A DNA stretch of 64,000 nucleotides from the NCBI RefSeq assembly GCF_004564135.1, contig NZ_CP038255.1:3273501-3337500 (forward strand). Reading direction: 5' to 3'. The notes under the pieces are model-generated. The model was not told the origin of the DNA. It saw only the letters and a program-made list of their open reading frames with translations, and made no database searches. The position numbers and the translations under genes are program-made. Below, one piece after another: positions 14,253 through 52,799 of this stretch (position 1 is its first letter; each line of letters begins with the position of its first letter). This stretch comes from Terasakiella sp. SH-1 (GTDB lineage Bacteria > Pseudomonadota > Alphaproteobacteria > Rhodospirillales > Terasakiellaceae).

Positions 14253-14518
14253 TACAGCTCTTTTCTCTAAACCTGACTCGCTTTCACGTTTATCTCATAC
14301 AATGTGGGTAGAAACCTTGCATGTGGCGGTGTTATTCACCGCAAATGGAAGGTGCCGCCCTCCACATTGTTTGAGATAAACGCCTCTGGTGGGCCTTATC
14401 TGTGCTTGTGTCGCGTCAATTTGCTTAACCGATGCCCCGCATCGCTTTGCACAATTTTCCTAACTCAAGCACAGATAAGGCTCCATGAAACGGGTCAGAT
14501 TTAGAGAAAAGAGCTGTA
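14253..14518 (+). mobile_element. Three-way-junction TA element, family 1 copy A
   Basis: A 266-bp non-coding element starting TACAGCTCTTTTC and ending with the inverse, CAGATTTAGAGAAAAGAGC...TA. The terminal inverted repeat is 28 bp with two mismatches. Inside are two long arms: arm A, 14288-14307 pairing with 14362-14381, tipped by GCGGTG-TTATT-CACCGC (14326-14342); and arm B, 14393-14408 pairing perfectly with 14466-14481, tipped by CGATGC-CCC-GCATCG. The outer stem plus two arms form a three-way junction. It is 94% identical, without indels, to 52534-52799. It lies between divergent genes, 33 bp before addB. A 66-codon open frame inside is not conserved in the third relative and is probably incidental. 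Confidence 0.85.
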
Positions 14519-27311: not shown

Positions 27312-27971
27312 TTATTGTGTAATCGTTTGAACCAGATTCTGTGCCTGACAATATTTGGCCAGCAGGCTTGCGGTTTCATCCAGATAAGCCTGTAATCCCT
27401 CACCTTCACCAAAATAGATCAAAACCATAATGATCTGGTGATTGCCTGGCGTGATCATGGTGCGTTCGCTGTCACTGGTTGGACAACCAAAGGGGCCGAG
27501 TTCATCACAAAAAACCGGAAGCCCTTCCAAATTCAGATCCCCCCGGCCAATGCCTTTATAGCTTTCGCCTTCACCGGCACGGCGAAAACTCACATCGCCT
27601 TGAATTTTTTCACTGATATACGTGCCGATAGAAATACCGGATTTAATAGAAATCAGGTTGTTCACATCGACCACGTTATTCACATGATAGATCCCTTTAC
27701 CCGATAAAATACGACGCGTCAGGGCTTCTGCTGCCGGACGATAGCGGGCCGGGTCTTTACCCAAAGCTTTATAGGCTTTGCGCGTTGCCATAATTTGCGG
27801 GTCAGTTGACGCAGGCTGGCCGTTAAAATCTGCAATTCGACACTCTGCAGTTTCTTCCAGCTGTTGCAACAGCTCAGCTGAGGCATCTTCAATCACCACA
27901 TCAGCCTGAATGATCCCCAGACGAACCTTAAGATCACGGTTGGCAAAATCACAAGACAGGGAAATATTCAT
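27312..27971 (-). CDS. B3/B4 tRNA-binding-domain protein
   Basis: A 219-residue stand-alone B3/4 domain, the fold that edits mischarged tRNA in the PheRS beta subunit. The core HVNNVVDVNNLISIKSG (about 115-131) and the later GRGDLNLEGLPVF and PFGCPTSDSERTMIT motifs are diagnostic for stand-alone B3/4 proteins, whose cellular role is uncertain. The start ATG directly abuts the end of a 268-bp structured element, which supplies the only ribosome site (AAGAGG about 11 nt upstream). It probably used to overlap the DMT transporter gene upstream. Confidence 0.88.
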   Translation of the reverse strand: MNISLSCDFANRDLKVRLGIIQADVVIEDASAELLQQLEETAECRIADFNGQPASTDPQIMATRKAYKALGKDPARYRPAAEALTRRILSGKGIYHVNNVVDVNNLISIKSGISIGTYISEKIQGDVSFRRAGEGESYKGIGRGDLNLEGLPVFCDELGPFGCPTSDSERTMITPGNHQIIMVLIYFGEGEGLQAYLDETASLLAKYCQAQNLVQTITQ

Positions 27972-28239
27972 TAGGGTCAGGACCTCTTAATTTATTGCGT
28001 TTGGTTTGTAAAAAATGTCGCAAGGCAAGGAAATGACTTGCAGGAAGAGTATTCTCTTTCAAAAGTTATTGACGTGGCCTTTGCGTCATTTTCTACAAAT
28101 CCCGAAGGGACGGGCTAAAAATAAAGGTGGCTCGCGTTATAAAACTCTTGCAGTGAATAGCACTGCGACGAATTTAATGCCTAATCCACCTTTATTTTTA
28201 GCTCCGCCAAACTCAGTAAATTAAGAGGTCCTGACCCTA
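27972..28239 (-). mobile_element. Three-way-junction TA element, family 2
   Basis: A 268-bp non-coding element (TA at both ends included) with a perfect 23-bp terminal inverted repeat starting TAGGGTCAGGACCTCTTAA; a GTTTGG/CCAAAC pair lengthens the outer stem. Two arms lie inside: 28005-28026 with 28077-28099, and a perfect 17-bp arm 28114-28130 with 28186-28202, tipped by GCAGTG-AATAG-CACTGC (28150-28166). Read on the minus strand it matches family 1: CTCT at offset 12, arm closing GTGG/CCAC, tip hairpin at offset 73 with TATTCAC, and CGTCAAT at offset about 165. It sits exactly between the DMT stop codon and the B3/4 start codon. Strand given is the orientation that aligns with family 1. 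Confidence 0.82.
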
Positions 28240-29169
28240 GGCCGCTTTCGGTTTAGTAAACACTTTTTGCAGCTTATCGACCAGCCAAGCACTTTTCAAG
28301 CTGGCAACAGCAACAATAGTCACAAGGGCACCAACAATCTGCATAGGGTTGAGAGTTTCCCCCAAAATCGCCCAGGCAGCCAAAACCGTTATAATCGGAC
28401 CGGACAAGGTAATCAGACTGGCCTGGGTTGCCCCGCAGCGCTTAATTCCTTCAAATAACATGAAAAATGGCAAAACCGTACAGGCCGTGGCAATAATCAC
28501 CCCCCATAAGATACCATCTGTTGGAAACGAAACCCCTTCTGCCCCTGCCGTCAAAGGGATCACCAATAACATAATGCCCAATGTGACAGTTCCCGAAGCC
28601 GCTGTAAAACGCACAGAGCCCAAGGATTTCATAATCTCCTGACTGGAAATCAAATAAACGGCATAGGTAAAGGCAGACCCCAGCGCCCAACTGGCCCCCG
28701 CCCAGTCAAACCCTTGTAACGATGCCAGACCATCAGGCAACATCACCATAGCGATCCCGAAATAAGTGGCAAAAAACACGCACCATTGATGCAGGCTTGG
28801 CGGTTTTCTCATCAACACTGCGTTGATTAACATCACCATCATGGGAAAGGTAAACAGGATCAGGCGCGATACGCTGACCCCCACTTTTGCAACAGCGGTA
28901 AAATCACAATAGGTGGCAAAGAAAAACATCAATCCGGCAAAGCTACAAGCTTTCCATTGCGCCCTCGTCAATGGGGCGGATTTGCGTGCCAAGAAATAAA
29001 CCCCAACCCAAAATAAGGGGGCCGCAATACCAAAACGCATCAACAAAACCGCATCAACAGACATACCGGCCAGATAGGCAAATTTGGCAAACACCCCTTT
29101 AAAGGCAAGAGCGATGGTTGCCAGTGTGACAAAAACAATCGCGCTCATATCTGTCTGTTGGTTGGGCAT
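28237..29169 (-). CDS. DMT-superfamily (EamA) transporter
   Basis: A 310-residue inner-membrane transporter with ten hydrophobic segments arranged as two EamA repeats (about 10-140 and 155-290). Substrate is unknown; the family exports or imports amino acids and other metabolites. GGAAAAAAAGCC precedes ATG 29169. The stop codon TAG uses the TA of the structured element that follows. It is divergent from a LysR-type regulator gene, the usual arrangement for a regulator and its target. Confidence 0.92.
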   Translation of the reverse strand: MPNQQTDMSAIVFVTLATIALAFKGVFAKFAYLAGMSVDAVLLMRFGIAAPLFWVGVYFLARKSAPLTRAQWKACSFAGLMFFFATYCDFTAVAKVGVSVSRLILFTFPMMVMLINAVLMRKPPSLHQWCVFFATYFGIAMVMLPDGLASLQGFDWAGASWALGSAFTYAVYLISSQEIMKSLGSVRFTAASGTVTLGIMLLVIPLTAGAEGVSFPTDGILWGVIIATACTVLPFFMLFEGIKRCGATQASLITLSGPIITVLAAWAILGETLNPMQIVGALVTIVAVASLKSAWLVDKLQKVFTKPKAA

Positions 29170-32296: not shown

Positions 32297-32361
32297 GTCG
32301 TCCTCACGAATGCGGGGATCTTTTTCCTGATTGATAAAGATTCCCAATCAAGTTGGGAATG
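32297..32361. repeat. REP-like palindromic repeat, copy 4
   Basis: GTCGTCCTCACGAATGCGGG, GATC, a spacer, then GATTCCCAATC and AAGTTGGGAATG. It lies between the ffs terminator and the convergent uppP gene. The last bases (GGT rather than GAC) have drifted. Confidence 0.8.
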
Positions 32362-32370
32362 GTATTATTG

Positions 32371-33171
32371 TTATAAATAATAAGCGTAATACAGCAGGAA
32401 CCCGCCAAGGCCAAGGCGGTAAATAAAGAAGGGGGTGAAAGACGCCCGCTTAAGCCAGGCCATCATAACCGCAATGGCAATAAAGGCTGAGACAAAAGCC
32501 AGTCCCGCAGCCGTCATTGCATCATTGGTCAGCTGCATATTGCCGCTTTCATAAAGCTCCAGCCCCTTAAGCGTACCAGCGCCCAAAATGGCAGGGATGG
32601 ACAACAACATGGAAAAACGCGCCGCATCCAAACGTTCATAGCCCAAAAAACGCGCTGCCGTCATGGTGATGCCGGAACGTGATGTGCCGGGGATCAGGGC
32701 AAGACATTGTGCCAGGCCAATCAAAATTGCATCCACAATCCCGGTATGTTCCACCCGGCGAATGGTCAGGCCCATTTTATCGGCCATATACAACAGAAAG
32801 CCGAATCCCAACGTTGTCCAGCCGATCACTTCAACGGTACGAAATTCCGGCCCAATATATTTATTCAGGAAATACCCCGCCGCAATAACCGGGATCGTGC
32901 CAATAACCACCATGGCCGACAAACGCGCACCGGGGTCTTTCTTGCCTTTGGTAAAACGCAACAAGCCACGGATCATATACCAGATGTCGCGCCAAAAATA
33001 GATCAGCACAGCTCCAAGGGTTCCAACATGGACGGCAACATCCATCAAAAGCCCCTGATCTTCCCAACCACCAAAAATCGGCACCAGGACAAGATGCCCA
33101 GATGAACTGATCGGCAAAAATTCTGTTATGCCCTGAACAAGTGCCAGAACCAGGATATGGAGTTCAGTCAC
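32371..33171 (-). CDS. uppP: Undecaprenyl-diphosphate phosphatase
   Basis: A 266-residue UppP/BacA, an inner-membrane phosphatase that recycles undecaprenyl pyrophosphate for peptidoglycan and lipopolysaccharide assembly. Eight or so membrane segments are seen. The signature motifs are GITEFLPISSSGHL (about 15-28) and PGTSRSG (about 162-168). ATG 33171 opens MTELHILVLALVQG, as in homologues. It lies divergent from gltD, with a palindrome at 33256 in the region before it. Confidence 0.96.
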   Translation of the reverse strand: MTELHILVLALVQGITEFLPISSSGHLVLVPIFGGWEDQGLLMDVAVHVGTLGAVLIYFWRDIWYMIRGLLRFTKGKKDPGARLSAMVVIGTIPVIAAGYFLNKYIGPEFRTVEVIGWTTLGFGFLLYMADKMGLTIRRVEHTGIVDAILIGLAQCLALIPGTSRSGITMTAARFLGYERLDAARFSMLLSIPAILGAGTLKGLELYESGNMQLTNDAMTAAGLAFVSAFIAIAVMMAWLKRASFTPFFIYRLGLGGFLLYYAYYL

Positions 33172-41536: not shown

Positions 41537-41598
41537 GTCGTCCTCGCGAATGCGGGGACCTCTTTCCCCAAGAGATTCCCAATCAAGTTGGGAATGAC
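41537..41598. repeat. REP-like palindromic repeat, copy 6
   Basis: GTCGTCCTCGCGAATGCGGG, GACC, short spacer, then GATTCCCAATC and AAGTTGGGAATGAC. Complete element between the crotonase gene and comM. Confidence 0.88.
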
Positions 41599-41622
41599 AT
41601 AATTTGATTGAAGGATAAAGCT

Positions 41623-43155
41623 ATGACAGCACGCATTACCACTGTCACATTTCAAGGCATCGACGTTATTGAAGTCGAAGTACAGGTTTCCATCACCACG
41701 GGCCTACCCGCCCTCAATATTGTTGGTTTGGCAGATAAGGCCGTGTCTGAGGCACGGGAACGGGTACGCTCTGCTTTAACCGCTTTGGGGCTGTCTTTGC
41801 CGCCCAAGCGTATTACAGTCAATTTGTCTCCTGCGGACCTGTCTAAAGAAGGCTCCCATTTTGATTTGCCTATTGCCTTGGGTCTTTTGGCCGCGATGGG
41901 CGTCATCTCAGAAGAAGAACTTCACCCTTTTATCGTACTGGGTGAACTGGCTTTGGATGGGCGGATCTCTCCGGTGACAGGGGTGTTGCCCGCAGCCATT
42001 CACGCCCAGATCAGCGGGCGCAATATCCTGTGCCCCAAGCCACAAGGCGGGGAAGCGGTCTGGGCAGGTGACTTGGATGTCTTGGCTCCTCATAATCTTT
42101 TGGAGCTGGTCAATCATTTTAAGGGGCGTCAGCTGCTCAGTCGCCCACAAGCGGTTCGAGCACAAGAAAAGGCCCCCAAAGATCAACTGGATTTACGTGA
42201 TATCCGGGGACAAGAAAGTGCCAAACGCGCCTTGGAGATTGCCGCAGCCGGCAACCATAATCTCTTGCTGTGTGGCCCACCGGGGGCAGGAAAGTCCATG
42301 TTGGCACGACGTTTGCCCGGTATTCTCCCACCGCTGGATGCGCATGAGGCCCTGGAAGTGTCCATGATCCATTCCATTGCCGGTACACTTCCAGAAGGCG
42401 GATTGATGGTGGAACGCCCTTTTCGCGATCCCCATCACAGTGCCTCCATGCCGGCGTTAATCGGGGGTGGGCATCGCGTGCGCCCCGGTGAGGTCTCGCT
42501 GGCCCATTTGGGCGTGTTGTTTTTAGATGAATTGCCCGAATATAACCGCACAGCCTTAGAAGCCCTGCGTCAACCATTGGAAACGGGGCGGGCTGAAATT
42601 GCACGGGCCAATGCCCATGTGAGCTATCCGGCACGTGTGCAGTTGATTGCAGCGATGAACCCATGTCGGTGTGGGCATTTAGATGATGCGGCTCTGGCCT
42701 GTTCACGTGCACCAAAATGCGCAGAAAGCTACCGTGACAAAATTTCAGGCCCCCTTTTGGACCGAATCGACCTTCACCTTGATGTCCCCCCAGTCAGTCC
42801 GGCAGACTTGCATCTGCCCCCTTCTGCTGAGGGCAGTACAGAAGTGCGTGCCCGTGTCCTGCAAGCACGTCTGATTCAAAAAGAACGCTATGCCGATTAT
42901 GGGGTGCGCACCAATGCCGAAGCTGATGGCGAGCTGTTGCTCAAAATCAGTGAACCGGATCAGGCGGGTAAAAACTTGCTGCTCGAAGCCACCAATAAGC
43001 TGAAACTATCAGCACGAGGCTATCATCGGGTCTTGCGCGTGGCCCGGACCTTGGCTGACCTACAAGGCCAAACACGGGTTAAAGCAGACCATATCGCAGA
43101 AAGCCTGTCCTATCGTCCCAACATGGCACGAAAAAAACAGGCTTTTGCAATATAA
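41623..43155 (+). CDS. comM: YifB/ComM family Mg-chelatase-like AAA+ ATPase
   Basis: A 510-residue ComM-type AAA+ ATPase, a branch-migration helicase that helps integrate foreign DNA in transformation. An N-terminal Lon-protease-like fold (ChlI; about 18-140, including KRITVNLSPADLSKEGSHFDLPIAL in parts) precedes the AAA+ domain with Walker A GPPGAGKSML (about 222-231), Walker B VLFLDELPE, and the C-terminal RGYHRVLRVARTLADL lid. AAGGATAAAGCT before ATG 41623 decides the start over an upstream in-frame one. Confidence 0.95.
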   Translation: MTARITTVTFQGIDVIEVEVQVSITTGLPALNIVGLADKAVSEARERVRSALTALGLSLPPKRITVNLSPADLSKEGSHFDLPIALGLLAAMGVISEEELHPFIVLGELALDGRISPVTGVLPAAIHAQISGRNILCPKPQGGEAVWAGDLDVLAPHNLLELVNHFKGRQLLSRPQAVRAQEKAPKDQLDLRDIRGQESAKRALEIAAAGNHNLLLCGPPGAGKSMLARRLPGILPPLDAHEALEVSMIHSIAGTLPEGGLMVERPFRDPHHSASMPALIGGGHRVRPGEVSLAHLGVLFLDELPEYNRTALEALRQPLETGRAEIARANAHVSYPARVQLIAAMNPCRCGHLDDAALACSRAPKCAESYRDKISGPLLDRIDLHLDVPPVSPADLHLPPSAEGSTEVRARVLQARLIQKERYADYGVRTNAEADGELLLKISEPDQAGKNLLLEATNKLKLSARGYHRVLRVARTLADLQGQTRVKADHIAESLSYRPNMARKKQAFAI

Positions 43156-52533: not shown

Positions 52534-52799
52534 TACAGCCCTTTTCTCTAAATCTGACCCGCTTTCACGTTTATCTCAAATAATGTGGGTAGAAACCTTG
52601 CATACAGCGGTGTTATTCACCGCAAATGGAAGGTGCCGCCCTCCACATTATTTGAGATAAACGCCTCTGGTGGACCTTATCTGTACTTGTGTCGCGTCAA
52701 TTTGCTTAATCGATGCCCCGCATCGCTTTGCACAATTTTCCTAACTCAAGAAAAGATAAGGCTCCATGAAACGGGTCAGATTTAGAGAAAAGGGCTGTA
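52534..52799 (+). mobile_element. Three-way-junction TA element, family 1 copy B
   Basis: The same length (266 bp) as copy A at 14253-14518, with 15 substitutions and no indels. The 28-bp terminal inverted repeat is perfect here. Arm A is 52569-52588 with 52643-52662 (perfect), tip hairpin 52607-52623; arm B is 52674-52689 with 52747-52762, with two mispairs. Relative to copy A two substitutions are paired: offset 6 T to C with its partner A to G, and an arm A C-G to T-A change. The ends are TA. It lies between divergent NUDIX and flavin reductase genes, 110 bp before the latter. Confidence 0.86.

Follow-up and report, generated by a model that had tools for sequence, protein, structure and literature searches.

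A superfamily of short TA-ended elements with two inverted structured arms in Alphaproteobacteria

The element at positions 27972 to 28239 of the window, by which we mean the whole 64,000-nucleotide stretch of Terasakiella sp. SH-1 DNA that was analyzed, belongs to a superfamily of non-coding elements that share one layout: a terminal inverted repeat of approximately 33 bp encloses two arms, which carry one and the same structured motif (motif M) inverted with respect to each other, and a small hairpin lies at the center. Elements of this kind, about 267 bp long, are very likely mobile, inserting at TA dinucleotides with TA left at both ends. The explanation that best accounts for all of the observations is that they are TA-inserting, non-autonomous elements recognized in trans via folded, strand-specific hairpins; we favor it by a modest margin, the recognition step being inferred.

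The element at 27972 to 28239 and its families

The features of the window are listed below with their matches to two covariance models: R1, built from nine arms of this genome, and R2, a held-out model built from 19 arms of genomes outside this genus, the origins of which were confirmed.

27972..28239, minus strand: family A element, 268 bp including both TA ends; the genome has six full-length copies, 93-100% identity
28207..28239, minus strand: left terminal inverted repeat of the family A element, about 33 nt, starting with TA; from local complementary alignment, pairs with 27972-28004
27972..28004, minus strand: right terminal inverted repeat of the family A element, about 33 nt, ending with TA; from local complementary alignment
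28121..28195, minus strand: arm 1 of the family A element (motif M, sense on the minus strand); R2 43.8 bits, E 1.5e-12; R1 match 28123-28193
28015..28089, plus strand: arm 2 of the family A element (motif M inverted, sense on the plus strand); R2 31.4 bits, E 7e-9; R1 match 28017-28086
28100..28110, no strand: small central hairpin between the arms of the family A element, TCCC-TTC-GGGA on the minus strand; from folding
14253..14518, plus strand: family B element copy 1 (family 1 of the original prediction), 266 bp
14300..14369, plus strand: arm 1 (M) of family B copy 1; R1 match, genome 3287800-3287869
14400..14474, minus strand: arm 2 (M, inverted) of family B copy 1; R2 64.2 bits, E 1.9e-16
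52534..52799, plus strand: family B element copy 2, 266 bp, 94% identical to copy 1
52581..52650, plus strand: arm 1 (M) of family B copy 2; R1 match, genome 3326081-3326150
52681..52755, minus strand: arm 2 (M, inverted) of family B copy 2; R2 53.1 bits, E 4e-13
28237..29169, minus strand: upstream ORF, 310 aa, the stop codon of which (TAG) is the first three bases of the element
27312..27971, minus strand: downstream ORF, 219 aa, with its ATG immediately after the last base of the element

The family A element folds as a single structure composed of an outer stem formed by the terminal repeats, a long arm, the small hairpin, and a second long arm. Its fold energy is -79 kcal/mol (DNA parameters), compared to -26.1 +/- 3.4 for 200 dinucleotide shuffles (z -15.6), and thus far exceeds chance. 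Without the element, the stop and start codons of the two same-strand ORFs on either side would overlap; the upstream ORF is one that we take to be transporter-like (by eye only, without a family search). The AAGAGG in the terminal repeat is a possible ribosome site before the downstream ATG, and another copy (L002) likewise adjoins an ATG and carries the same AAGAGG variant.

The original prediction, made from the sequence alone, compared this element with family B and listed landmarks held in common, which were confirmed: the lengths of 268 and 266 bp; CTCT at offset 12 in both; GTGG at offsets 50 and 51 and CCAC at 109 and 109 (family A element and family B, respectively); the tip hairpin arms at offsets 73 and 84 in both; CGTCAAT at 165 and 161; TGCA at 197 and 195; and TTTCC at 206 and 203. 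A correction applies to CTCT, which is not a family feature, as the six-copy consensus of family A has CTAT there. The prediction also missed that the two arms are one motif in inverted orientation. Its central claim, that the superfamily conserves its loops, lets its helices vary freely, and includes more than one end type, was supported and proved to be understated: where at least two end types had been proposed, at least five families occur in this genome, with about 20 end types overall (by eye).

The source genome consists of one contig of 3.83 Mb. In addition to family A, it contains five copies of family B (94-100% identity), and the same searches of this genome brought in three further families with other ends, C, D, and E. 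The long matches of family C cover only the interior of family A, at 67-69%, and family E has loop sequences in common with family B and different helices and ends. Of 11 family C loci, three (L146-L148) did not fit the pattern and were excluded from the family consensus comparison. In total, 34 of 42 loci were delineated; those omitted were L137, L133, L175, and L184, which have weak or incomplete repeats, L192, and L169, L172, and L176, which are repeats of L138, L170, and L118. The 34 delineated elements include 22 representatives below 0.72 pairwise similarity. Element length is nearly constant, with a mean of 267 bp (SD, 3; range, 263-276) in 31 delineated elements, a statistic that leaves out one one-armed element and two with an extra central hairpin.

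Throughout the superfamily, the terminal inverted repeat is about 33 nt long, has TA at both ends, and closes a junction with the two arms, so that the MITE criterion of TA ends plus terminal inverted repeats is met. Some ends in relatives are AA, CA, or TG rather than TA. Element ends were set partly by hand, with TA favored whether they were set by hand or by script, and several elements lack one or two end bases. Across the 44 ends of the 22 representatives, the terminal TA is among the best conserved columns, partly owing to how the ends were set. A18 is present in 38 of these ends, C27 in 31, T29 in 30, T30 in 34, and T31 in 28, and most other columns of the terminal repeat fall below 0.7 bits.

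Two minor observations concern pieces of these elements. In a Rhodobiaceae MAG, two loci (L174 and L177) have an extra central palindrome of about 60 bp containing GGATGTTTCCG, which may be cargo or mark an insertion point between the arms. The sequence GGGTCAGGACC, allowing at most one mismatch, occurs 130 times in the source genome versus 33 times for the reversed control, and several of the stretches inspected hold only a 15- to 20-bp piece of the family A end, without the remaining element.

Covariation, detection, and distribution of motif M

Nine arms of families A to E can be aligned, with the two arms of each element in opposite orientation. Motif M is about 75 nt long. It comprises an internal loop, with YAGG(A/C) on the 5′ side and RACGC on the opposite side, together with a tip stem, another internal loop, and a hairpin. 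RNAalifold predicted 22 pairs from the nine arms of this genome, 20 of them with both-sided changes; in the 19 arms from other genera, both-sided changes were found at 24 of 26 pairs.

Covariation extends to a non-Watson-Crick pair in the internal loop. A set of 122 unique aligned arms, obtained from 143 matches in 84 loci, includes 121 ungapped arms in which this pair is A.G (65), C.A (52), or A.A (4) and never C.G. Among cluster representatives (37 ungapped of 38), it is A.G in 25 and C.A in 12, with none mixed (Fisher p 5e-10). The adjoining pair is G.A in 108 of the 121. A.G and C.A can be isosteric in sheared geometry. Palindrome correction does not produce non-Watson-Crick pairs that change in step.

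Wobble pairs provide a possible indication of the strand on which the motif acts. When 63 arm clusters were folded without G-U, single mismatches in the M sense numbered 54 G.T versus 19 A.C (p 5e-5), and folding the complement of those clusters swapped the excess (23 versus 53); the outer stems of 34 elements, used as a control, gave 13 G.T versus 20 A.C. Within families, the counts were 45 G.T versus 28 A.C in the arms read in the M sense (p 0.06) and 13 versus 20 in the outer stems. The model-fitted arm alignment contains 195 G.T versus 34 A.C, with no excess in the hairpin pairs (3 versus 3). The excess is thin elsewhere, at 3 versus 0 in six arms undetected by the model and 5 versus 2 in eight arms of the source genome. 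Over whole elements, counted on one strand in eight families (53 rows), the distinct events at paired sites were 44 G.T, 45 A.C, 47 other, and 43 compensatory; this count omits regions of fewer than 280 bases and those whose outer repeat scored below 24, and it uses only clusters with at least three unique rows. Most simply, the excess would mean that M functions as a folded single strand and does so in its own sense on both strands of the element. The detecting model favors G-U, however, and the excess could be partly a bias of that model.

The original prediction would have been refuted by a covariance search that recovered only its three loci at chance levels. This refutation failed: R1 detected 66 arms in the source genome at E <= 1, of which 54 form 27 pairs, all 27 in the order plus then minus and about 105 bp apart, and 12 are single (our count). 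The search was also positive outside this genome, with M detected in 26 of 60 relatives (source genome included) and in 31 of 385 genomes sampled evenly across the class. Both of these searches used stricter filters, and only 13 candidates were scored per genome in the 385-genome search. Three genomes are common to both samples, and the carriers total 54 distinct genomes. The motif is patchily distributed within the genus, G001 having 22 matches, G005 having 2, and G002-G004 having none; other carriers have 91 (G038), 37 (G019), 26 (G059), and 14 (G050) arm matches. In a pattern scan of genome contigs that yielded 25 stretches, R1 found M in 18 at E <= 0.01 (29 matches). One of the 18 (L185) is labeled uncultured Clostridiales; its R1 match lies away from the pattern, and the label may be wrong. 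Among the named carriers are Thalassospira lucentensis, Mesorhizobium xinjiangense, Nitratireductor soli, Labrenzia sp. OB1, and Roseibium aggregatum, together with several Rhodospirillales and Rhodobiaceae MAGs.

The held-out model R2, run with filters off over positions 27900-28310, found both arms of the element at 27972 to 28239, with the opposite strands reaching only 3.9 and 1.6 bits; this detection is strand specific and more than chance. With default filters over the whole window, R2 found only the arms designated X in the two family B copies and missed the 27972-28239 element up to E 10; family A is therefore a divergent branch. R2 likewise finds the family C and A-like elements of other genomes, with both arms detected in all eight sources tested.

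Mobile replicons were searched as well. The element DNA of 27972-28239 had no match among plasmids, the Mesorhizobium element matched two plasmid records, and L173 matched one. With L173 as the query, no match was found among phages. The terminal repeats of two families gave only weak plasmid matches (best E 0.9), and IMG/VR yielded one contig with a weak match of 19.3 bits. On plasmid p1536_1 of Nitratireductor thuwali, a 174-bp derivative (L305) has ABC-transporter genes on both sides and has itself been annotated as the gene of a hypothetical protein.

Mobility and the search for a mover

An empty site corresponding to the family A element is present in G001, a genome of the same genus, in which the flanks of 27972-28239 are 27 bases apart versus 293 here. 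The aligned site reads TTCAT-CA-GG in G001 and TTCAT-TA[element]TA-GG in the source genome, a net gain of 266 bp. A target duplication or empty site is a further MITE criterion and is met, the G001 site having CA at the position of TA in the source genome. Mobility is also supported by copies in the source genome that are as much as 99% identical. Elements nested in one another were identified at three loci. At L003, a family A element interrupts a family B element at TTCTC-TA-A; at L024, a family C copy sits within an A-like end; and at L334, in G038, an M arm of a host element contains a member of another family at a former TA, with TA on one side and TG on the other. Among 23 full copies examined in the source genome, 17 are intergenic and 6 are inside an ORF by a naive longest-ORF call, including the copy at 52534. 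Five one-armed forms were inspected. L252, L263, and L121 have different deletion junctions, and L007 and L008 share a junction at a microhomology and differ elsewhere. The possibility that one-armed forms are a separate mobile lineage was rejected, there being no clearly multiplied form among the five.

Two transposase families were compared with the distribution of M across the 60 genomes, and neither tracks it. The IS630-type DDE_3 domain (PF13358) was matched in 12/26 carriers versus 13/34 non-carriers (p 0.60), with no match in carriers G038 and G059, and Y1_Tnp (PF01797) was matched in 11/26 carriers versus 9/34 non-carriers (p 0.27), with no match in carriers G038, G059, G019, G001, and G050. 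At 92% completeness, the G038 genome might lack an individual gene, and only these two families were covered. An IS630-type or Y1 transposase as an obligatory partner was rejected, given the lack of association; a past or other TA transposase is not excluded. Searches with terminal repeats in the source genome and G038 pointed to no transposase-bearing copy, the flanks not having been exhaustively read for genes and only the stretch 2830425-2831937 having been read for ORFs around unexplained ends. A candidate autonomous copy in the source genome, with two family C ends about 1.4 kb apart, was rejected on inspection. That locus (L333, G000:C1:2830425-2831937) consists of two 63-bp, internally deleted family C elements that have the same microhomology junction and lie in inverted orientation around a single 456-aa ORF, which we take to be not transposase-like (by eye, without a family search). 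In a separate observation, inverted repeats of GGGGTCAGAGTAA lie on both sides of a Y1 transposase match at L304 (G029), an arrangement similar to the TIRYT type described in PMC3733652. These repeats resemble TAGGGTCAGG, the end of family A; no link is shown.

The mechanism that we propose is inferred. A transposase supplied in trans would recognize the M hairpin at each element end, with one hairpin on each DNA strand, when it is folded as a single strand, either through cruciform extrusion or on an exposed single strand, and would cut at the TA ends, which lie a nearly constant distance away. Under selection for mobility, internal-loop bases, spacing, and pairing capacity would be fixed, and helix letters and outer ends would be free to drift into families. 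Whether a trans-acting transposase does recognize the structure is a matter on which the evidence is close to evenly balanced, and this reading is weakened by the empty site with its TA duplication, which is also expected from a plain sequence-reading transposase. A bolder reading is that the elements represent a distinct class of DNA transposition, in which an unknown TA-inserting enzyme would identify its substrate by an inverted pair of folded hairpins and not by the end sequence; we offer it tentatively and lean slightly against it. The same reservation extends to its details, namely, that the hairpins would carry a tandem non-canonical pair (G.A beside A.G or C.A) and that ends and helices would diversify as the shape stays.

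The original prediction did not decide between a structured RNA and a protein-read DNA fold. DNA-level mobility via a strand-specific hairpin is somewhat favored by the empty site, the TA duplication, and the inverted arms, and RNA is not excluded. If the mover reads the fold, the elements would exhibit a new recognition mode for a TA-duplicating transposon and provide a handle on the unknown enzyme. If the fold acts in RNA, the two samples together would contain 54 distinct genomes with a mobile structured RNA. In either case, the DNA-versus-RNA question can now be tested with the covariance models.

Alternative explanations and known systems

The alternative that survives best, although we consider it unlikely, is that these are ordinary MITEs, in which a TA-inserting, Tc1/mariner-like transposase of the IS630 type reads the terminal repeats only and palindrome correction, through template switching during replication, gives rise to the arms as a by-product. 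The TA duplication and the terminal repeats are consistent with this view, as are the weakly conserved positions in the terminal repeat and the many compensatory events in the outer stem (25/75 versus 18/128 in the arms), which quasi-palindrome correction can produce. However, template switching yields Watson-Crick complements and leaves loops free, whereas here the loops are conserved and a non-Watson-Crick pair covaries. In addition, DDE_3 does not track the elements, the carrier with 91 arm matches (G038, 92% complete) lacks a DDE_3 match, and no one-armed form among the five inspected is clearly multiplied.

It is also unlikely that the elements are kept for a structured RNA in host transcripts, acting in mRNA stability, processing, or antitermination, as has been proposed for ERIC, NEMIS, and REP. 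This view is favored by the excess of G.T over A.C in the M sense, by the covarying arm pairs, and by the position of 27972-28239 between the stop codon and the start codon of two same-strand ORFs. Against it, only one arm per transcript would be in the M sense, yet both arms are conserved inverted, and presence within the genus is patchy (22 matches in G001, 0 in G002-G004). Wobble events are even over whole elements (G.T 44 versus A.C 45), and an RNA-only reading is not supported by these counts. No element of the window matched Rfam, nor did those at 20 other loci; at the gathering score, Rfam returned only SRP RNA and RNase P, elsewhere in the sequences, and at E <= 10, it added three chance-level matches.

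An enlarged REP/REPIN system, in which M would be a derived CGTC-tagged REP arranged in head-to-head dimers and moved by a RAYT/TIRYT (Y1, HUH) transposase, is very unlikely. The complement of M does have CGTC or CGTT beside a hairpin, facing the center as in head-to-head CGTC dimers, which predominate in Alphaproteobacteria without a known transposase (PMC3733652). Nevertheless, the last tag base varies among 121 sequences (65 with C, 56 with T), there are two stems with internal loops and not one 8- to 9-bp stem, the elements have a TA duplication and 33-bp terminal repeats, and five carriers with 14-91 arm matches have no Y1_Tnp match. Chance resemblance of the three loci is ruled out by the covariation, the genome-wide and cross-genome matches, and the held-out model.

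Returning to our preferred reading of TA-inserting, non-autonomous elements, the closest known kinds are MITEs and REP dimers, with an exact fit to neither. We class the superfamily with the MITEs, as TA-duplicating, non-autonomous, structured elements without an identified parent, since it shows those MITE features that were open to testing. Bacterial MITEs such as RUP, NEMIS/Correia, and EFAR duplicate TA. Such elements are 70-300 bp long with 15- to 30-bp terminal inverted repeats and robust structures (PMC3733652), and the superfamily is similarly short, non-coding, bounded by terminal inverted repeats, and robustly folded. RUP, NEMIS/Correia, and EFAR are defined by their end sequence, whereas the ends and helices of the superfamily vary between families; unlike those MITEs, it has the same internal-loop letters, number of arms, and overall length throughout a class, and the searches revealed no cognate IS. 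The general grouping of bacterial MITEs by ends and insertion sequence would split this class-wide superfamily into unrelated families, which structure unites.

The CGTC-tagged REP head-to-head dimers (Di Nocera et al. 2013, PMC3733652) resemble the superfamily in having inverted tagged hairpins, in occurring mostly in Alphaproteobacteria, and in having no dedicated transposase known, and in some species, REP dimers sit within longer palindromes (PMC3733652). REPs are 20-40 bp long with one 8- to 9-bp stem and a CCA tail, whereas M is about 75 nt long, has two internal loops, and lies within a 267-bp element; a CGTC tag beside a single 8- to 9-bp stem with a CCA tail, the criterion for CGTC-tagged REPs, is thus not met by M. 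The Coxiella elements QMITE1 and QMITE2 (PMC5896051) are also structured MITEs, and QMITE2 contains a REP and has short relatives in alphaproteobacteria (PMC5896051). Rather than TA, their direct repeats measure 2-3 nt, with variable sequence, and 7-11 nt (PMC5896051), and the sections of that paper bearing on them describe no superfamily with changing ends. The rhizobial RIME and ABC palindromes (Osteras 1995, via PMC2573895) are similarly intergenic palindromic repeats, those being of Rhizobiales. No description of the superfamily was found in the open-access literature searched; most subscription papers were outside this scope, and absence from print is not shown.

Integron attC sites are recognized as a folded single strand and have conserved unpaired features and free stems, a likeness to M. 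The loop sides of M, YAGG and RACGC, do not form the attC boxes, which are RYYYAAC and GTTRRRY (compared by eye), and the superfamily has a TA duplication in place of attC recombination. By analogy, then, the superfamily resembles elements that are recognized as folded single strands (REP, attC) but fails their membership tests. Elsewhere in the window, at 32338-32396 and 41573-41631, are short palindromes of the AGATTCCCAATCAAGTTGGGAATGA type, a direct repeat, that resemble the CGTC/TGTC-tagged REPs of PMC3733652.
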